A stretch of 49,934 bases of DNA, taken from Deltaproteobacteria bacterium. GTDB lineage: Bacteria; Desulfobacterota; Desulfobacteria; Desulfobacterales; GCA-2748835. The position numbers were made by a program, and so were the translations under genes. Below, piece by piece: positions 2,525 to 11,171 of this stretch. The notes under the pieces are model-generated. The model was not told the DNA's origin. It did not search any database and saw only the letters and a list, made by a program, of their open reading frames with translations. The first letter of the stretch is position 1. Each line of letters begins with the position of its first letter. The stretch covers positions 90,576 to 140,509 of the forward strand of contig PDTL01000013.1 in assembly GCA_002748835.1 (NCBI GenBank), in the 5' to 3' direction.

Positions 2525-3142
2525 ATGCAGACAAAAACACGCAGAGAACGGGAACGGGAACAGAAAAAACGGGATATTCTGGATGCAGCTCAGGTGCTGT
2601 TTGCTGAAAAAGGGTTTCACGGGACCACCATGGCCGAGATCAGCCAGGCCTCCGAATTCCCGCTGGGTACCATCTACAAGTTTTTTCAGGGAAAAGAGCA
2701 ACTCTATCATGATCTCATCGTGGAGCGGGGACGTGCCTTCGGACGCATACTGAACCGCTCCCTGCGGGATGAAACCCTGTCTCCAAAGGCGAAGCTCGCT
2801 GGAATGATGAATGATATCGCGGACTATTTTGTGGATAACAAAGCGTTTATCCGGCTCTATATTTCCCAGGTGATTCATGTGGATGCGGTGCTCATGCCTG
2901 AGCTGGGCCGCAACATCAGCCGGATGCACGATGAGATGATCTCCTTGTATGCCGGGCTCATGGCATCGGGAATGGCATCGGGCGATTTTGTCAGCGCGGA
3001 GCCCGATGAACTGGCGGAATTGTTTCAGGGCATGATCACCAGTACGTTCTGGGCATGGATTCAGGCGGAAGAACCGGCAGATCGGCTGTCCGAACGGCTT
3101 CAGACGATTTACACCCTTATTGCGAAAGACAGGCGCTCATGA
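2525..3142 (+). CDS. TetR family transcriptional regulator
   Basis: With the start at 2525 the protein has 205 residues. That ATG has a GAGGG ribosome site five bases upstream; an in-frame ATG at 2474 lacks one. The N-terminal DNA-binding domain is typical of TetR: ILDAAQVLFAEKGFHGTT leads into a helix-turn-helix at residues 37-56, with LGTIYKFF in the recognition helix. The rest, about 65-200, is a ligand-binding, dimerising helical domain. Its TGA overlaps the ATG of the AAA+ gene (ATGA at 3139-3142). It probably senses a hydrophobic ligand and controls its own operon, but no clear operator was identified. The role is inferred from family and position. Confidence 0.88.
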   Translation: MQTKTRREREREQKKRDILDAAQVLFAEKGFHGTTMAEISQASEFPLGTIYKFFQGKEQLYHDLIVERGRAFGRILNRSLRDETLSPKAKLAGMMNDIADYFVDNKAFIRLYISQVIHVDAVLMPELGRNISRMHDEMISLYAGLMASGMASGDFVSAEPDELAELFQGMITSTFWAWIQAEEPADRLSERLQTIYTLIAKDRRS

Positions 3143-4305
3143 CCAAACATCCTGTTAGCGTGGATATCCGGGAAATAAAAACCATTCTGACCGCCTACCT
3201 GAACACCGATGCACGGATCAACTATGCCGTGAAGATTGTGGGACACCCGGGGGTGGGCAAATCCTCGATTGTCCGGCAGGTGGCGGAAGCAGAAAACCGT
3301 CTGTTTATTGATACACGGCTGGCATTCAAGGAAAATGTCGATCTGGGCGGGTACCCGGTTCCCCACCATTCGGACCGTGAGATGGTCTACTACCGTCCCC
3401 GATTTATTCCCCCGGAGACCGTACCGGAAGGGAAAGACGGAATTGTCTGGTTTCTCGATGAGGCCAACCGGGCGCATCCGACTGTGATCCAGACCCTGTT
3501 TCAGATTATCACGGAGCATGTGTGCGGTGAACATCGGCTTGCCGACCGGACGGCCATCGTTCTCGCCGGCAACCTGGGGGATCCGGATGACACGGTGCTC
3601 ACCGATTTTCATGATGCGGCCCTGGACGGCCGGCTGGCGATATTTCACCTGAAACCGTCCGTGACAAGCTGGCTCAGGTGGGCTGCTGTTGCCGGCATCC
3701 ATCCGGCAGTGATCCGGTATATTACCGTGAACCCGGACGCGCTTTGGGACGAAACTCAGGTGCATCCCAACCCCAGAGGCTGGCATCAGGTTTCCCAGGC
3801 CTTGACCCTGGCGCACCGGCTGGGAGACGAAGCGGCTCTGAAAACCGCCCTGAACGGCCCGGATGCGGCGGTGGTGGAAAAGGTGGTGATATCGCTTGTG
3901 GGAGAAACCGCCGGGCATGACTTTGTCATGGAACAGGTGGCTCCCCGGGAGCTGACCGCCGAACAGATTCTGGCCGGAGACCCGGAAAAAATCCAGGCCC
4001 TGAAAAATGAAGGCATTCATGTGGAGGACCTGCTCTGGGCCATCAACGGAACCCTCGGATATTTCAGGGATCCGGACAGGGACACTGCCGCACTCTCCGA
4101 TGACGACCTGAAACGGCTGGGATACGTGCTCACCTTTATTGCAGGTACGCGGGCGGATGTGCGGGTATCGTTTTTCTACCTGCTGCTGAAATCCTGCGGT
4201 ATTTTTTCCCAGATTCCGGCAGCCGTCAACCTGCTGGAGGATGCGGCGCAGCAAACCCGTATCCGCGAGAGCTACACGGCATTTCTCGAAGGCGGAATTG
4301 CATGA
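3139..4305 (+). CDS. MoxR-type AAA+ ATPase
   Basis: The 388-residue product starts at the ATG inside the ATGA overlap with the TetR gene. It carries a Walker A motif (GHPGVGKSS, 35-43), a Walker B motif (VWFLDEANRA, Asp109-Glu110) and a sensor-1-like segment (LAGNLGDP). The layout fits the MoxR branch of AAA+ proteins, which form hexamers and remodel or activate partners, usually with a VWA-domain protein encoded next door. That partner follows directly (ATGA at 4302-4305). Helical segments after residue 230 would form the lid. The pair probably acts as a metal- or cofactor-insertion or protein-maturation chaperone; the client is not known, although the two downstream genes are candidates. 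Confidence 0.85.
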   Translation: MTKHPVSVDIREIKTILTAYLNTDARINYAVKIVGHPGVGKSSIVRQVAEAENRLFIDTRLAFKENVDLGGYPVPHHSDREMVYYRPRFIPPETVPEGKDGIVWFLDEANRAHPTVIQTLFQIITEHVCGEHRLADRTAIVLAGNLGDPDDTVLTDFHDAALDGRLAIFHLKPSVTSWLRWAAVAGIHPAVIRYITVNPDALWDETQVHPNPRGWHQVSQALTLAHRLGDEAALKTALNGPDAAVVEKVVISLVGETAGHDFVMEQVAPRELTAEQILAGDPEKIQALKNEGIHVEDLLWAINGTLGYFRDPDRDTAALSDDDLKRLGYVLTFIAGTRADVRVSFFYLLLKSCGIFSQIPAAVNLLEDAAQQTRIRESYTAFLEGGIA

Positions 4306-5771
4306 CCCTTCACGGACCGGCGGAGCTGGATCTTTCCCCCGCAGAAATTTCAAGCAGAAAATGGGATGCGGTGCTGTCCCTGCTCTGGAAGCGGAGCCGG
4401 TTTGTCTCTTTTTTCTATCAGGGGATCCAGTTCTTGCCCGATACCGCAACGCTCACCCTGACACTGACCGTCAGCCGGTTCCGTCGGGTCCTGCGCTATC
4501 ACCCCGGTTTTGTGACACGCCTTGACACCGAGCACCTGATCGGGCTGCTCGTGCATGAATTTCTCCATGTGGCCTTAAACCACAGCCACCGGTCCGTGCC
4601 GGGAAAAAACACCTATCTTCAGAACATTGCCCAGGACATGGTGGTAAATGCGTACATGATCCGCCGATCGGGCAGCTTTTTCTCCCGCCGGGGGGTGCTG
4701 GAAAGGGATATTCCCAAACTGCAGCTGCCTCCGGGGCTTCCGGTGATCCCGGACGATTTTTATATAGAGACGGGCCACACGGATCCCACCTGGGAGGCGG
4801 TCTATACCTGGCTCGACACCCGGGGGCCTGCGGATATGAGCGCGTTCACCGACGCGGCGAAAACCCAGTTGGAACAACCGCCCCAGGTGAACAACCCTTT
4901 CAACGCGGCCATGGAAAATCCAGATCCGGAACCTTCTGAGCGCACCGAGTGGGGATTTCAGATGGATGACGCGGGTCTGATTTTTTACCAGGATGAAGGC
5001 CAGGTGCTCCCCACCGGTATGCACACCTTCCACGATGCAAGCGCCGAACGGAGCTTGACCGCCTCGTTCCGGCGGATCATCGAACAGGGCCGTCGCGAAA
5101 AAACCTTTGCCGACGAGCGGGTCTTCCAGGCAGTGGACGGGCTGATATCCGGTATTCAGCGTCCCCAGCAGCTCCGATGGAAACGGCAGATCCGGACCAC
5201 TATTGATCGATATTCCACGGCTGATCGCTGGCGATTTACACCGGCCCGTCCCAATCGCCGATTTTTGGACAGTGGCATCTATGCGGCCGGCCGGGTGCTT
5301 GATTTCAAAAAACAGGTGATCGTGGCAGTCGATGTCTCCAGCTCCATGGTCGGGCGGCCTGAAACGCTTCAACGGGCCTTCGGGGTGGTCGAGGATCTCC
5401 TGGATCAGTATACGGTCCATCTCCTGTGCGTGGATGAGACCGTGTTTGTGCCGAAAAAAGGGCTGTCCGGTTTTACGGCATCGCCCGAGTCACGAAGGCC
5501 CTATACCTATCACCGGGGAGACTGGCAGGCCATCCGCACCGGTTCCAGCGGTACCACATTTTTTGCGCCCCTGTTCAATGACTGGCTCAAGGGCGTCAAC
5601 GAAGCGGTACTGGTGGTGACCGACGGCCATATTTATGACCTGAATCGCCTTACCCCCTACCGGAAGACGGTGTGGCTGGTGACATCCCGGCCGGATACCC
5701 CGTTTTCCCCCGGATTCGGGAACATCTATTATCTGGATGATGACGAGATGACTGGATGGTGGCGCCCATGA
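4302..5771 (+). CDS. VWA-like protein with putative metallopeptidase domain (DUF2201 type)
   Basis: This 489-residue protein has two recognisable parts. The N-terminal half contains an HEFLH zinc motif (His85, Glu86, His89), as in the putative metallopeptidase domain that precedes VWA-like DUF2201 domains. The C-terminal part, from about residue 335, is a von Willebrand A-like fold with the metal-ion-dependent adhesion motif D-x-S-x-S (Asp344, Ser346, Ser348), and a G-x-T segment (SGTT) follows. Such proteins pair with MoxR ATPases, and here the genes share four bases. A variable, proline-rich linker at about 190-240 separates the domains. No signal peptide is present, so a cytoplasmic complex is likely. 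Whether the HExxH site cleaves peptides or only binds metal is open. Confidence 0.82.
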   Translation: MTLHGPAELDLSPAEISSRKWDAVLSLLWKRSRFVSFFYQGIQFLPDTATLTLTLTVSRFRRVLRYHPGFVTRLDTEHLIGLLVHEFLHVALNHSHRSVPGKNTYLQNIAQDMVVNAYMIRRSGSFFSRRGVLERDIPKLQLPPGLPVIPDDFYIETGHTDPTWEAVYTWLDTRGPADMSAFTDAAKTQLEQPPQVNNPFNAAMENPDPEPSERTEWGFQMDDAGLIFYQDEGQVLPTGMHTFHDASAERSLTASFRRIIEQGRREKTFADERVFQAVDGLISGIQRPQQLRWKRQIRTTIDRYSTADRWRFTPARPNRRFLDSGIYAAGRVLDFKKQVIVAVDVSSSMVGRPETLQRAFGVVEDLLDQYTVHLLCVDETVFVPKKGLSGFTASPESRRPYTYHRGDWQAIRTGSSGTTFFAPLFNDWLKGVNEAVLVVTDGHIYDLNRLTPYRKTVWLVTSRPDTPFSPGFGNIYYLDDDEMTGWWRP

Positions 5772-6352
5772 CAACGGACATGACAACCCGGCCTCCGGAC
5801 AATGCGCTGGAAGCGGCCATCACAGCGAGCACAGATCCGGAAGCCATTTACCGATGGGGACGGACCGCACAGTCGTTTCCCTGGGATCTGGGTCTGAAAC
5901 GGCTGTATGCGCTGGGCGGCGCCCAGTATCTGTGCTGGGCTGGCCGGGGCTGGGCCGGTGCTGATCTGGACACCTGTCTGACCTATCTTCTCAGTTTGCG
6001 GGTACCGTCCCATATTTATCATGCCGGCATCAACTGGAAGCGGTTTGACTTCAGACGGGCCCAGCCGGTGCTGATGCAGCTGGCAGACCCGGCGTTCATC
6101 TTCTACGCCGGCGCCTACTGGCAGGTATTTGATTATGCGGCAGGGATGAACGCGCTGATCCGCACCAAGAGCGCCGAATACCTGTACCGGGCCGGAACCC
6201 TGTGGCACACGTTTGACTACGATGCTGCCTGGCGGATTATTGAAGCGGATCCGGCGGCAGAAGACTGGCGGGCCAAGGCCCTGACCCATCCCAAGTGGCG
6301 CGCGGCCCTGAAACAGATCTGGCAGGATGCCTGGAAGCGGAGCAACGGATGA
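5768..6352 (+). CDS. unrecognised protein of five tandem 28-residue repeats
   Basis: I do not recognise this 194-residue protein. Apart from short ends it consists of five consecutive 28-residue units, at about residues 28-55, 56-83, 84-111, 112-139 and 140-167. The working consensus is an aromatic residue, x, Ala-Gly, two residues, Trp, two residues, Phe-Asp-aromatic, two or three residues, Ala, then a Leu/Ile-rich helix. Units 3 to 5 are the clearest. The pattern suggests a helical solenoid like TPR or Sel1, though neither consensus fits exactly. There is no signal peptide. The start at 5768 is chosen because it gives an ATGA overlap with the VWA gene; an ATG at 5756 is also in frame. Its place between the AAA+/VWA pair and a tRNA-modifying enzyme suggests an adaptor or client-recognition role (inference). 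Confidence 0.72.
   Translation: MTTDMTTRPPDNALEAAITASTDPEAIYRWGRTAQSFPWDLGLKRLYALGGAQYLCWAGRGWAGADLDTCLTYLLSLRVPSHIYHAGINWKRFDFRRAQPVLMQLADPAFIFYAGAYWQVFDYAAGMNALIRTKSAEYLYRAGTLWHTFDYDAAWRIIEADPAAEDWRAKALTHPKWRAALKQIWQDAWKRSNG
5849..6268 (+). repeat. five in-frame 84-bp coding repeats
   Basis: Five 84-base units in register encode the 28-residue protein repeats. At DNA level they are well diverged, so the periodicity is seen in the protein rather than as near-identical DNA. This points to old duplication kept by structural selection, not to recent slippage. Confidence 0.68.
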
Positions 6353-7320
6353 TTCGGTTTGAATCTGGCATGGATGATTTATGGATGGCCCCCCTGCGGG
6401 GGCTGACCGGGTGGGTTTATCGTTCTGTCTGGGCCGCGCATTTTTCCGGCATCGTTAACTCGGTCTCCCCGTTTATTACCACGGTCCGGGCACGGAAGGT
6501 GAAACAGGCGTTTTTTCGGGATCTGTTTCCGGAAAATAACGAAAATCTGCCCGTCATTCCCCAGATACTGGGAAATGATCCTGGAGACATGGCGTATCTG
6601 GTCAGCCGTCTGGAAGATCTCGGGTATGATCACGTTAACTGGAACCTGGGATGCCCGTATAAAATGGTGGCCAAAAAGAAACGGGGCTCCGGGCTTCTGC
6701 CGTTTCCAGATCAGATCGATGCGGTGCTGGATACCCTTTGCCGGCACCGGGAAGGGCGGATATCGGTGAAACTTCGTCTGGGCAGAGAAACCGCAGATGA
6801 GATCCAGGCACTGATACCGGTTCTCAATGCCCACCCCCTCAGCGGCGTGATCCTGCATCCCCGAACGGGCGTGCAGATGTACGCGGGCCGGGCAGACCGG
6901 GATGCCTTTGGTAACTGCCTGCCCCTGTTTAAGCATCCGGTCATGTACAACGGCGATATCACGACCGCAGCCGATGCGGCGGCTGTAAAACAGGCCTGCC
7001 CGGCGGCAGCCGGGCAGATGCTGGGAAGAGGGCTCTTGTGTGATCCGTTTCTGCCGGAAACCATCAGCGGTGCCAACCTTTCCGAGGCCGTGCGGCGAAA
7101 CCGCCTGAAAGCCTTTCATGACGATCTGCTGGATCGGTACCGGATCGTGCAGAGCGGTGAAAAACATGTGCTGGACAAGATGAAAGGACTCTGGGTTTAC
7201 CAGCGGTTTTCCTTTGCAGATCCGGCATCGGCGTTTCGGCAGATCCGTAAAACCGCAAGCCTGGATGCGTATACGGCTGCGGTAACGACCGTGTTTGACG
7301 TCTATCCGCTGAAATCGTGA
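6349..7320 (+). CDS. tRNA-dihydrouridine synthase family protein
   Basis: The 323-residue product is a flavin TIM barrel of the Dus family, which reduces uridines in tRNA loops with FMN and NADPH. It opens with WMAPLRGLTG, the usual MAPMxGxT start of strand 1, and has NLGCP with the conserved Cys102, the phosphate-binding segment MYNGDI, and GRGLLCDP near the end of the barrel, followed by a small helical domain. The segment after NLGCP (KKKRGSGLL) matches the KxxKGSxLL form. The start at 6349 lies in an ATGA overlap with the repeat-protein gene; an in-frame ATG at 6295 would overlap that gene by 58 bases and adds residues unlike the family. Its place at the end of an AAA+/VWA operon is unusual. 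Which uridine it modifies is not determined. Confidence 0.87.
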   Translation: MIRFESGMDDLWMAPLRGLTGWVYRSVWAAHFSGIVNSVSPFITTVRARKVKQAFFRDLFPENNENLPVIPQILGNDPGDMAYLVSRLEDLGYDHVNWNLGCPYKMVAKKKRGSGLLPFPDQIDAVLDTLCRHREGRISVKLRLGRETADEIQALIPVLNAHPLSGVILHPRTGVQMYAGRADRDAFGNCLPLFKHPVMYNGDITTAADAAAVKQACPAAAGQMLGRGLLCDPFLPETISGANLSEAVRRNRLKAFHDDLLDRYRIVQSGEKHVLDKMKGLWVYQRFSFADPASAFRQIRKTASLDAYTAAVTTVFDVYPLKS

Positions 7321-7391
7321 TTGATTCTGATCTCACCTGTTAAAAAAATCAGGGCTTTGTTGTGGGGGCAAATAATGATAACCTGTCTTGT

Positions 7392-7646
7392 ATGAGAACA
7401 AAGCACAAAAGAATTCTATCTGCAATTTTCGATTCACCAACACGTTCGAACCTCAAGTTTTCGGATATTGAATCATTGCTGATTTCACTTGGTGGAGACG
7501 TGTCGGAAGGTACTGGCTCTCGTATTTCCATTACCGTTTCAGAAAAAAGCATATTTCTTCACCGACCGCATCCGGGAAAAGAAGCAAAAAAATATCAAGT
7601 TGAAATGGTGAGGGAATTTTTAATGAAGACAGGGGTGACACCATGA
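7392..7646 (+). CDS. hicA: HicA-like toxin of a type II toxin-antitoxin module
   Basis: An 84-residue basic protein with the HicA double-stranded-RNA-binding-like fold: KFSDIESLLISLGG, then an EGTGSR segment, a strand with FLHRPHP, and VREFLMKTG at the end. HicA toxins are mRNA interferases. The usual catalytic histidine of the GSHH loop appears as Arg in GSR, while a His occurs later in LHRPHP, so activity should be checked. The ATG at 7392 is preferred over a GTG at 7362 because family similarity starts there; neither has a strong ribosome site. The stop overlaps the start of the HicB gene (ATGA at 7643-7646). The gene is more AT-rich than its neighbours, which fits acquisition by transfer. 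Confidence 0.8.
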   Translation: MRTKHKRILSAIFDSPTRSNLKFSDIESLLISLGGDVSEGTGSRISITVSEKSIFLHRPHPGKEAKKYQVEMVREFLMKTGVTP

Positions 7647-7981
7647 AAAACACGTTAACGTATAAAGGGTATACAGCACGGATCGCGTTTGATCCTGATG
7701 ACAATATTTTTTTTGGCCGCGTAGTGGGCCTTAAGGATATGATTGGATTTCATGGAGAGACCGTTTCAGAGATGATCGATGACTTTCACAATGCGATTCA
7801 TCATTATCTCGCCGGATGTGAAGCACGGGGTGAAAGACCGCAAAAACCCTATTCCGGGAAATTGACACTGCGGATGTCGCCGGACACACACGCAGAACTA
7901 GCTGCGGCAGCAGCGGATACAGGCAAAAGCCTCAACAAGTGGGTCACCGATACCCTTGAAGGTGTTATCCACGCGCGATAA
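7643..7981 (+). CDS. hicB: HicB-like antitoxin
   Basis: This 112-residue protein has the two HicB parts: an N-terminal RNase-H-like partial fold (GYTARIAFDPDDNIFFGRVVG, residues 9-29) that caps the toxin, and a C-terminal ribbon-helix-helix segment (KLTLRMSPDTHAELAAAAA, then SLNKWV) that binds DNA and would repress the hicAB promoter. It overlaps hicA by four bases, giving translational coupling. The module sits between the Dus gene and the speA operon. HicB neutralises HicA by direct binding; here the function is inferred from fold signature and gene order. Confidence 0.87.
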   Translation: MKNTLTYKGYTARIAFDPDDNIFFGRVVGLKDMIGFHGETVSEMIDDFHNAIHHYLAGCEARGERPQKPYSGKLTLRMSPDTHAELAAAAADTGKSLNKWVTDTLEGVIHAR

Positions 7982-8055: not shown

Positions 8056-9972
8056 GTGGTGAAAAAAGATGCCCTGGAACGCTGGACCACGGAAAATGCT
8101 GCGGAACTTTATGGGGTCCGCAACTGGGGGGCTGGCTACTTTGATATCAATGAGGCGGGGGAGGTGGTGATCACTCCGTTCAACGACCTGCCTGTCTCGA
8201 TCAGTATTCCCGTGATCATCGCCGAACTGAAAGAGCGGGGGATCGACATGCCCGTGCTCCTTCGCATCGGAAACATTCTTGACTCCCAGATCTCCAGCTT
8301 GCATCAGGAATTTCAGACAGCCATGGAGACCTACGGGTACAAAGGTCAGTTTCGCGGGGTGTATCCCATCAAGGTGAATCAGCAGAAACAGGTGGTCGAA
8401 GAGGTGGCTGACTTCGGGGCCCGTTACCATCACGGTCTGGAGGCGGGATCCAAGGCAGAGCTGATTGCCGCGTTGTCCTTTTTAAAAGATCCGGAAGCCT
8501 GTCTAGTCTGCAACGGATACAAGGATGCGGAATTTGTGGATCTGGCCCTGTATGCCTGCAAAATGGGGATGAATTGCTTTTTGGTGGTGGAGATGCCTTC
8601 GGAGCTGGATCTGATCCTGGAACGGTCGACATCTTTGGATATACGGCCCAAGATCGGCGTGCGCATCAAACTGGCTTCCAAAGCTGGCGGCCACTGGACT
8701 GAATCGGGCGGAGACCGGAGCATTTTCGGCCTGAACACCACCCAGGTCGTGAAACTGGTGGACCGGCTGAGAGAGGAGGCCATGCTCGACTGCCTGCAGC
8801 TGCTGCATTACCATCTGGGTTCCCAGATACCCAATATTCGGGATATTCGCAACGCGGTTTTGGAAGCCTGCCGAATCTATACCGGTCTTTCGGCCGAAGG
8901 GGCGGGCATGGCGTATCTGGACCTGGGCGGCGGCCTGGCCGTAGACTACGACGGCACCCATACCAATTTCGCCAACAGCCGGAACTACTCCATGCAGGAA
9001 TATTGCGCGGACATCATCGAGACCGTCATGTCGACCATGGATGCGGCAGACATTCCCCATCCGGTGATCATCACCGAATCAGGCCGGGCCACGGTGGCCT
9101 ATTACTCGGTGCTGCTCTTCAATATTCTCGATGTAAGCCGTTTGCAGCCTCATCCGTTTCTGGAAGATCTGGCACCGGATACGCCGGATGTGATTACCAA
9201 CCTGATGGAGGTGACCCAGACCCTGAACGTAAGGAATATTCAGGAGTGCTTCAACGATGCCCTCTATTATCGGGATGAGCTTCGGCAGCGGTTCAAACAC
9301 GGTGATGTCAGCTTGAGAGAGCGATCCTTAGGAGAAAATATCTTCTGGCATGCCATCCACGCCATTGCGGAAGAGGTGAAAAAGCTGAAATTTGTTCCGC
9401 CGGCGCTCAAAGATCTCGAAAGCGCCCTTGCCGATATCTATTATGGCAATTTTAGTGTGTTCCAGTCGTTGCCCGATGCCTGGGCCATTGACCACATGTT
9501 TCCCATCATGCCGGTTCACCGGCTGAACGAGCTGCCGAATCGCCAGGCCATCCTGGCGGATATCACCTGCGACTGTGATGGTAAGATTGACCGGTTCATT
9601 GACATGCATGCCATGCGGTCAGCCCTGCCGGTGCATGATCTCAATGAACATGACGAGTACTTCCTGGGTGCTTTTCTGGTGGGCGCGTATCAGGAAACAT
9701 TGGGTGATCTGCACAACTTGTTCGGCGATACCAATGTGGTGAGCATCCGGGTGGAGCCGAACGGGGATATCGATTTTGTAAAAGAACAGAACGGAGACGC
9801 GGTGGCAGACGTACTCACCTATGTGGGATACACCCCCAAATCCATGGTCGAGCGGTTTCGGGCCATGGCGGAACAGGCGGTCCGGGAAAAACGGATCAAT
9901 GTGCAGGACCGGTACCGAATCATGAAGGCGTATGAGGGTGGCCTGCGGGGATACACCTATTACGAACGCTAA
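8056..9972 (+). CDS. speA: biosynthetic arginine decarboxylase
   Basis: At 638 residues this matches the large PLP-dependent SpeA family (fold type III), which converts arginine to agmatine and CO2. The PLP lysine is Lys106 in YPIKVNQQK. Further along are HYHLGSQIPN and LGGGLAVDYDG of the barrel, and the C-terminal beta domain with DCDGKID, where a conserved cysteine contributes to the active site. The GTG at 8056 has an AAGGAA ribosome site eight bases upstream; a second GTG follows directly. It is the first gene of a four-gene polyamine operon; the next start is 20 bases after its stop. SpeA usually needs magnesium and forms tetramers (family knowledge). Confidence 0.96.
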   Translation: MVKKDALERWTTENAAELYGVRNWGAGYFDINEAGEVVITPFNDLPVSISIPVIIAELKERGIDMPVLLRIGNILDSQISSLHQEFQTAMETYGYKGQFRGVYPIKVNQQKQVVEEVADFGARYHHGLEAGSKAELIAALSFLKDPEACLVCNGYKDAEFVDLALYACKMGMNCFLVVEMPSELDLILERSTSLDIRPKIGVRIKLASKAGGHWTESGGDRSIFGLNTTQVVKLVDRLREEAMLDCLQLLHYHLGSQIPNIRDIRNAVLEACRIYTGLSAEGAGMAYLDLGGGLAVDYDGTHTNFANSRNYSMQEYCADIIETVMSTMDAADIPHPVIITESGRATVAYYSVLLFNILDVSRLQPHPFLEDLAPDTPDVITNLMEVTQTLNVRNIQECFNDALYYRDELRQRFKHGDVSLRERSLGENIFWHAIHAIAEEVKKLKFVPPALKDLESALADIYYGNFSVFQSLPDAWAIDHMFPIMPVHRLNELPNRQAILADITCDCDGKIDRFIDMHAMRSALPVHDLNEHDEYFLGAFLVGAYQETLGDLHNLFGDTNVVSIRVEPNGDIDFVKEQNGDAVADVLTYVGYTPKSMVERFRAMAEQAVREKRINVQDRYRIMKAYEGGLRGYTYYER

Positions 9973-9992
9973 GACGTAAAGGAGATGCAGCC

Positions 9993-11171
9993 ATGGCAAG
10001 TGTGCTCATTATCGGCGCTGGCGGCGTGGGGCGTGTGGTGGTTCATAAATGCGCCCAGGTGCCGGCGGTGTTTACGGATATCTGTCTGGCCAGCCGGACG
10101 GTTTCCAAGTGTCAGGCCATTGCGGACAGTCTGGACCGGCCCATCCGGGTGGAAGCGCTGGACGCGGACGATGTGGCCCAGACCGTTGCCCTGATAAAGG
10201 ATGTGAATCCGGATCTGGTGATCAACGTGGCCCTGCCGTATCAGGATTTGGCCATCATGGATGCCTGCCTGGAGACCGGTGTCAATTATCTGGACACGGC
10301 CAACTACGAGCCGCCGGATGAGGCGAAATTCCATTACGGGTGGCAGTGGGCCTACCAGGAACGGTTCAAAGACCGCGGGATCATGGCCTTGCTGGGCAGC
10401 GGATTTGATCCGGGGGTCACCAATGTATTTACCGCCTATGCAGCCAAACATCATCTGGACGAGATTCATGAGCTGGACATTATCGACTGCAATGCCGGTG
10501 ATCACGGCCAGCCCTTTGCCACCAACTTCAACCCGGAGATCAATATCCGGGAAGTGACCGCACCCGGAAAGTATTATGAAGACGGTCAGTGGATCGAAAC
10601 CGGTGCCCTGAGCGTAAGCAGGGACTTTCATTTTCCCGAAGGCATCGGCCTGAAAAAAATCTATCTCATGTACCATGAAGAGCTGGAATCTCTGGTCAAG
10701 CATCTGCCGACAATCAAACGGGCACGGTTCTGGATGACCTTTTCAGATGCCTACCTGACCCATCTGAACGTATTGGAAAACGTGGGCATGACCCGGATCG
10801 ATCCGGTGATGTACAACGGTCAGGAGATCATTCCTCTGCAGTTTTTAAAAGCCCTGCTGCCGGATCCGGGCAGCCTGGGGCCTCTGACAAAAGGCCGGAC
10901 CTGTATTGGCTGTGTGATGAAAGGCGTGAAGGACGGAGCGGAAAAGACGGTCTACCTGTATAATATCTGCGACCATGCGGCCTGCTATGCGGAAGTGGGG
11001 TCCCAGGCCGTCTCCTATACCACCGGTGTGCCGGCCATGATCGGTGCTATGATGCTGCTCACCGGCGTCTGGCAGGGAACAGGGGTGTTTAACATGGAAC
11101 AGATGGATCCAGACCCCTTCATGGACACACTCAACCGTCACGGACTCCCATGGAAGCTTGTTACCCTGTAG
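9993..11171 (+). CDS. carboxy(nor)spermidine dehydrogenase (saccharopine dehydrogenase family)
   Basis: The 392-residue protein has an N-terminal Rossmann fold (VLIIGAGGVGRVV, residues 4-16) and the saccharopine-dehydrogenase-like middle domain. Carboxyspermidine dehydrogenase condenses putrescine with aspartate semialdehyde and reduces the imine with NADPH to carboxyspermidine. The assignment over true saccharopine dehydrogenase rests on context: speA upstream and, overlapping by 22 bases, the carboxyspermidine decarboxylase gene downstream. A strong AAGGAG ribosome site lies ten bases before the ATG. Whether it makes carboxyspermidine or carboxynorspermidine depends on the diamine; with agmatinase making putrescine, carboxyspermidine is expected. 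Confidence 0.93.
   Translation: MASVLIIGAGGVGRVVVHKCAQVPAVFTDICLASRTVSKCQAIADSLDRPIRVEALDADDVAQTVALIKDVNPDLVINVALPYQDLAIMDACLETGVNYLDTANYEPPDEAKFHYGWQWAYQERFKDRGIMALLGSGFDPGVTNVFTAYAAKHHLDEIHELDIIDCNAGDHGQPFATNFNPEINIREVTAPGKYYEDGQWIETGALSVSRDFHFPEGIGLKKIYLMYHEELESLVKHLPTIKRARFWMTFSDAYLTHLNVLENVGMTRIDPVMYNGQEIIPLQFLKALLPDPGSLGPLTKGRTCIGCVMKGVKDGAEKTVYLYNICDHAACYAEVGSQAVSYTTGVPAMIGAMMLLTGVWQGTGVFNMEQMDPDPFMDTLNRHGLPWKLVTL

Follow-up and report, generated by a model that had tools for sequence, protein, structure and literature searches.

MoxR-type AAA+ ATPases paired with VWA-domain proteins are common, and few of these pairs have a known client. One such pair lies in the 49,934-nucleotide stretch of Deltaproteobacteria bacterium contig PDTL01000013.1 that was analyzed here (the window), where it is followed by a gene for a protein of 28-residue repeats. 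The question raised by this locus is which enzyme these genes serve. An original prediction, made from the sequence of the window, had described a run of five genes (TetR, MoxR, VWA, repeat protein and Dus) joined by ATGA overlaps, and all four overlaps were found, at 3139, 4302, 5768 and 6349. The conserved part of the run comprises only the genes for MoxR, the DUF2201_N/VWA protein and the repeat protein (hereafter the triad), which recur together in two phyla. The reading put forward here, at a probability of roughly one half, is that the triad is an AAA+ machine that activates, repairs or matures acyl-CoA dehydrogenases (ACADs) of about 568 residues that belong to a single clade, designated clade T. 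Its support consists of gene order, co-occurrence, intact motifs and, in some loci, a shared spacer palindrome; from these we infer the identity of the client and the chemistry of the triad, and contact with the client is predicted. The features of the run are as follows.

2525..3142, + strand: TetR-family regulator, a partial member of the unit (PF00440, 50.5 bits)
3139..4305, + strand: MoxR-type AAA+ ATPase, core subunit 1 (AAA_5, PF07728, 30.3 bits, cut-off 22; phrog_1297 ATPase, 2.6e-50)
3241..3264, + strand: Walker A motif GHPGVGKS, MoxR residues 35-42 (sequence and alignment of same-order relatives)
4302..5771, + strand: DUF2201_N metallopeptidase-like domain with C-terminal VWA domain, core subunit 2 (PF13203, 58.5 bits; phrog_1314, 3e-31)
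4554..4568, + strand: HExxH, residues 85-89 of the VWA protein (30/30 aligned homologues)
5331..5345, + strand: MIDAS motif DxSxS, residues 344-348 of the VWA protein (30/30 aligned homologues)
5768..6352, + strand: 28-residue-repeat protein, core subunit 3, a predicted alpha-solenoid (same genomes as the VWA gene; AlphaFold2 pLDDT 94.8)
5837..6256, + strand: five two-helix 28-residue units, from residues 24, 52, 80, 108 and 136 (AlphaFold2 helix positions; lag-28 test)
6349..7320, + strand: Dus-family protein, a neighbour outside the conserved unit (PF01207, 105.2 bits, cut-off 20.4)

A three-gene unit in two phyla

GTDB representatives were scanned with a MoxR alignment, which gave 35 loci assigned by record title to Desulfobacterota and Spirochaetota, four of them labelled only Proteobacteria or Deltaproteobacteria. 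Together with the window and the same-order loci L010, L011 and L013, these make 39 MoxR loci (L012, the same contig as L027, was dropped), some of which come from the same genomes as the G-numbered genomes searched below. In 32 of the 39, MoxR is followed downstream by the VWA and repeat genes, and a contig end cuts six (L015, L020, L037, L043, L045 and L047). The one real exception is L038 (8001-9973), where MoxR stands alone: the remainder of the contig contains neither a VWA nor a repeat gene, and 0.5 kb downstream is a short integrase-like open reading frame (ORF; named by eye), an arrangement that likely reflects decay of the unit. MoxR and VWA are separated by 1.4-5.5 kb containing other ORFs in L019, L023 and L048, and by 0.2-0.5 kb in L010, L025, L029 and L046.

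The distribution of the other two genes was followed in a sample of 194 genomes from the order to which the window belongs, with thresholds of E <= 1e-40 for the VWA profile and E <= 1e-10 for the repeat profile. Both profiles match an identical set of 18 genomes, on the same contig and within 1.1 kb of one another, and they likewise match an identical 12 of 149 Spirochaetota genomes. A repeat gene apart from a VWA gene was not found in either sample at the thresholds used. The original prediction that MoxR, the VWA protein and the repeat protein act as one unit is therefore well supported.

An acyl-CoA dehydrogenase clade that tracks the triad

Clustering of the neighbouring genes revealed an ACAD-like protein, about 568 residues long, that adjoins the triad core. 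Once masking by antisense ORFs had been removed, the ACAD gene was found next to MoxR in 20 of the 35 loci with enough upstream sequence to be informative, which leaves out the short L019, L020, L035 and L041. In 11 of the 20 it lies upstream of MoxR on the same strand, in Desulfobacterota and in metagenome-assembled genomes with broader labels; in the other nine, all Spirochaetota, it is divergent from MoxR and present in two copies in eight loci and in one copy in L045. Three ACAD proteins from two relatives score 48-61 bits against the Acyl-CoA_dh_1 model (cut-off 22.4), and the same three fall just below the cut-off of Acyl-CoA_dh_M (26-31 against 33.3 bits), which marks a divergent member of the family. 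The window genome's own ACAD matches solved ACADs, the best being 1ukw (E 1.9e-13).

The ACAD query matches 82 of the 194 genomes of the order at E <= 1e-120, and a Spirochaetota ACAD query matches 23 of the 149 Spirochaetota genomes at E <= 1e-100. A tree of 155 rows, rooted at the midpoint, takes in every match from the triad-less genomes and one or more from each triad genome except G237. Its clade T (84 rows, SH-aLRT 98) is represented in 18/18 triad genomes of the order and in 8/176 triad-less ones (Fisher value 1.5e-19, which, like those below, ignores kinship). In Spirochaetota, clade T is present in 12/12 triad genomes, 11 of them in the tree and G237 by score only, and in 1/137 triad-less genomes (8e-17). 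Clade N (67 rows) contains the ACADs of most triad-less ACAD-bearing genomes, together with the second copy of triad genome G067; four rows (G018, G173, G225 and G315), which a weak branch places close to clade T, were counted in neither. All 12 triad genomes that were searched individually, four of which are also in the Spirochaetota sample, have an ACAD match at E <= 1e-100. Two ACAD copies occur in all 12 Spirochaetota triad genomes and in 1/137 others, and G198, a triad genome outside that sample, has a single copy.

In 13 of the 18 triad genomes of the order, the window genome included, the ACAD gene is not next to the triad, and in 6 of the 12 Spirochaetota triad genomes it is on a different contig. 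The co-occurrence therefore holds where the genes are apart, and does not merely restate their adjacency. In the samples the triad was never seen without a clade-T ACAD, and the reverse occurs in nine genomes, as would be expected if the triad serves the enzyme and not vice versa.

A regulatory connection is visible in some of the loci. The original prediction included the TetR gene in the unit; this holds for seven of 39 loci, the window and six from Spirochaetota, where a TetR gene immediately precedes MoxR. The best NCBIfam match of the window TetR is a FadR-type fatty-acid regulator, far below the cut-off (49.9 against 200). The palindrome GAACNNNGTTC is present in five of the nine divergent ACAD-to-MoxR spacers (L036, L039, L042, L045 and L048) and occurs 12 times, those five included, in the 461,491 bases of 35 loci. 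The bounds of the spacers rest on manually chosen start codons, and the L039 and L048 sites are upstream of the chosen start, inside the longest possible ORF.

Such evidence also accommodates an alternative in which the triad and the ACAD share an acyl-CoA regulon but the triad acts on another target, e.g., an electron acceptor, a membrane partner or a target of lipid stress. Co-occurrence and a shared divergent promoter prove common use and not contact, and several loci have varied neighbours with an acyl theme. An enoyl-CoA hydratase is among the triad neighbours in L011, and in L027 (6496-8004) a fusion of a cupin with a phosphate acetyl/butyryl transferase is directly upstream of MoxR and overlaps it. 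In the window, a lysophospholipase L2-like hydrolase gene (1547-2470; below the cut-off of that family) precedes TetR on the same strand by 54 bp; the run may therefore begin further upstream, and the hydrolase may be co-transcribed with it, which would fit an acyl-lipid theme. However, no other neighbour family is as recurrent as the ACAD, the next cluster (a transporter ATPase by eye) being found in eight loci at scattered offsets. An alternative target within the regulon is possible, if somewhat unlikely.

Several observations weigh against the ACAD as client. Of the 35 informative loci, 15 have no ACAD beside MoxR; the window is one of these, and its genome encodes the ACAD on another contig (G000:C13:85169-86875). 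Nine sampled genomes (G013, G047, G104, G108, G110, G127, G136, G162 and G287) have a clade-T ACAD without the triad, and MoxR was not found in them either, in a search that had no positive control; their ACADs would therefore manage unaided or with a substitute. If the four weakly placed rows are counted as clade T, the triad-less counts rise to 10/176 and 3/137. The Fisher values are inflated by close kinship among the genomes, and the tree is rooted only at its midpoint. Only I146, Y154 and C250 separate clade T sharply from clade N (each at least 85% on both sides), and the alignment of the two clades contains no processing tail or extra domain that would show the action of the triad. The palindrome is missing from four of the nine divergent spacers and was not seen at the window TetR or at the promoter of the window genome's ACAD. 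Finally, a physical client is not proven by co-regulation or co-occurrence; the ACAD and the triad might both work in a single pathway.

From the close coupling to Dus, the original prediction had proposed this flavoprotein, tRNA modification or something sensed by the TetR protein as the object of the complex. The window Dus protein is above the cut-off of PF01207, reaches 107.9 bits against the DusB equivalog TIGR00737 (cut-off 293.3), and ranks third among the five Dus matches of its own genome (264.4, 210.1, 105, 30.5 and 20.8 bits), i.e., a divergent one. Relatives were counted at E <= 1e-40 in the window's order, and in Spirochaetota at the triad loci only. Beyond the ATGA coupling in the window, such a role would gain from the presence of Dus relatives in 89 of the 194 genomes, comprising 14/18 with the triad and 75/176 without (Fisher value 0.006), and from one genus (G026, G085 and G122) in which a related Dus gene and the clade-T ACAD are about 0.5 kb apart:

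L133:9692-12923: Dus relative, divergent, 485 bp from a clade-T ACAD (the same arrangement in G122 and G085, of one genus)

This proximity leaves a faint link open for Dus. However, Dus adjoins the triad in only one of the 18 triad genomes of the order, that of the window, and is elsewhere in 13 and absent from four; for the other 38 triad loci, the sequence retrieved contains no Dus relative. We regard Dus as a neighbour of the window alone and not as the client, and a role for the triad in its service is scarcely credible. Separation of both the repeat and Dus genes from the MoxR-VWA pair in most relatives had been named as the observation that would undo the proposed link; at the thresholds used, the repeat gene was never apart from the VWA gene in the two samples, and in the window's order Dus mostly was apart from the triad. 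What stands of that reading is the triad as a unit and its assignment to the client-maturing MoxR-VWA sort, with the ACAD in place of Dus as the putative client.

Other genes of the window were noted in passing. Directly after Dus are HicA toxin-like and HicB antitoxin-like genes (7386-7981), followed by an arginine decarboxylase-family gene and a saccharopine dehydrogenase-like gene (8056-11171), a pair that looks like a polyamine route. A protein with a Peptidase_C39-like match is encoded on the minus strand at 278-1309.

Subunits and proposed mechanism

The MoxR protein is 52-56% identical to four same-order relatives, and its Walker A residues, D107-E108 and N145 are invariant in all five aligned sequences. 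The VWA protein exceeds the gathering score of DUF2201_N (23.2), and 30/30 homologues match this model at E <= 0.001. In all 30 aligned homologues H94, H96 and D112 are invariant beside HExxH, a predicted metal site with candidate peptidase function, and the MIDAS residues D344, S346, S348, T419 and D441 are invariant as well. No Pfam VWA model matches the window protein's own VWA part, and the assignment is made because of the MIDAS motif and the VWA fold; the VWA domain of NorD (9qhe_G, E 1.4e-3) is among its weak Foldseek matches. The locus has three features in common with MoxR-VWA pairs, namely a MoxR-type AAA+ ATPase with intact Walker A and B motifs, an adjacent VWA partner with a MIDAS, and a genetic tie to a putative dedicated client enzyme, here the co-occurrence and adjacency of the clade-T ACAD.

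Scans of Pfam, NCBIfam, PADLOC and PHROGs at E <= 0.01 assigned the repeat protein to no family. The 28-residue period of the original prediction was confirmed: lag 28 is the best in the range 10-79, and none of 5,000 shuffles reaches it. AlphaFold2, run on 28 homologues, predicts an alpha-solenoid of two-helix units, five of them clear (mean pLDDT 94.8), which has no PDB match by Foldseek at E <= 0.001. Weak matches to DUF7476 (3/28) and Csm6_6H (1/28) were seen among the homologues, and none to Pfam for the window protein at E <= 0.001, in a database that may or may not hold a VMAP-C model. The same repeat is present in metagenomic proteins unlike that of the triad (P0004, P0007, P0009, P0010, P0013 and P0014), some of which have other N-terminal parts, e.g., DUF7666. 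It therefore appears, from its sequence distribution, to be a general and unnamed repeat module.

In the mechanism proposed, the MoxR ring would be the ATP-driven motor, into which the VWA protein would insert via its C-terminal VWA domain, its N-terminal domain bearing the putative metal site (HExxH, H94, H96 and D112). The solenoid, which varies in length, would dock the client. ATP hydrolysis would then strain the flavoenzyme such that a dead-end ligand is freed, FAD is inserted or exchanged, or assembly is finished, and in part of the family TetR may control triad and client jointly. Butyryl-CoA dehydrogenase is known to bind CoA persulfide, which is a hazard in any setting where sulfide is made. 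A more specific version, in which a solenoid-clamped, rubisco-activase-like machine of three parts pulls dead-end ligands such as CoA persulfide, or spent FAD, from the fatty-acid-oxidising flavoenzyme, is fairly unlikely.

The invariance of HExxH, H94, H96 and D112 in all 30 aligned homologues would also suit a quality-control protease, in which damaged ACAD is passed by MoxR and the repeat protein to the HExxH site and is destroyed or trimmed there. Clade-T ACADs, however, are marked by no extension or processing site, and the fold-match lists, which were made for the whole VWA protein, were filled by its VWA domain. In NorQD, according to an extract of PMC9976466, a VWA finger fills the MoxR pore, which speaks against the threading of a target. 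A proteolytic role is therefore quite unlikely.

Relation to known MoxR-VWA systems

The best reading, by analogy, is that the triad is a MoxR-VWA caretaker like CbbQO, NorQD or RavA-ViaA that also has an invariant HExxH site and a third subunit, probably a solenoid. Fumarate reductase is a flavoprotein complex; rubisco, the client of CbbQO, is not a flavoenzyme. CbbQ-CbbO resembles the triad in that a MoxR motor and a VWA adaptor are devoted to one metabolic enzyme: CbbQO activates rubisco, and CbbO binds its client via the VWA domain. It differs in that neither a repeat-protein subunit nor an HExxH domain is mentioned in the abstract (PMC4660213). NorQ-NorD, which acts in FeB insertion into nitric oxide reductase, is likewise a MoxR-VWA pair with a different client; the part of NorD before the VWA domain has no obvious homologues according to an extract of PMC9976466, whereas the triad protein has DUF2201_N with the invariant HExxH there. 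RavA-ViaA, a further such pair, interacts with and modulates fumarate reductase; unlike the triad it has two components, and no link to an acyl-CoA dehydrogenase appears in the extract of the same source.

A third conserved gene beside MoxR and vWA is known from the ternary conflict systems of Kaur et al. 2020 (VMAP, iSTAND and others; extract of PMC7159879), and this shared logic raises the possibility that the triad is a conflict or defence system. MoxR relatives in phages, and metagenomic proteins that join the repeat to DUF7666 or another N-terminal part, would be in keeping with such a role. The window MoxR matches 710 of 50,697 phage records at <60% identity, phage N4 gp24 (NC_008720.1) included, and the VWA protein matches phrog_1314, which carries the PHROGs label HNH endonuclease. 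The phage ATPases are 24-29% identical in the 30 rows listed, and the L013 repeat protein has no match in the phage records at E 0.1. A difference from the ternary systems is that the third protein of the triad is a helical repeat without a recognised domain. The window MoxR scores only 15.3 bits against bpMoxR (cut-off 27), and the best PADLOC match of any subunit has E 0.006. The triad is instead conserved with a metabolic gene, and a role in defence is very unlikely.

Searches of the open-licence PubMed Central literature found no described system composed of MoxR, an HExxH/VWA protein and a repeat protein, in keeping with the earlier statement that none was known. Nor did they find a paper that joins MoxR, VWA and DUF2201, one that links MoxR with acyl-CoA dehydrogenase in Desulfo- taxa, or one that links von Willebrand and AAA+ proteins with acyl-CoA dehydrogenase in Spirochaet- taxa. 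A TetR gene beside an AidB-like ACAD is described in an extract of PMC9736018, a paper that also mentions MoxR.

The existence of sister ACAD branches, one that tracks the triad and one that does not, provides a named candidate client that is directly testable. If the caretaker reading is true, acyl-CoA dehydrogenases would join the enzymes that require an AAA+ caretaker, a role would be revealed for a third, solenoid subunit in such machines, and the DUF2201_N metallopeptidase domain and the unnamed 28-residue repeat would gain a function.

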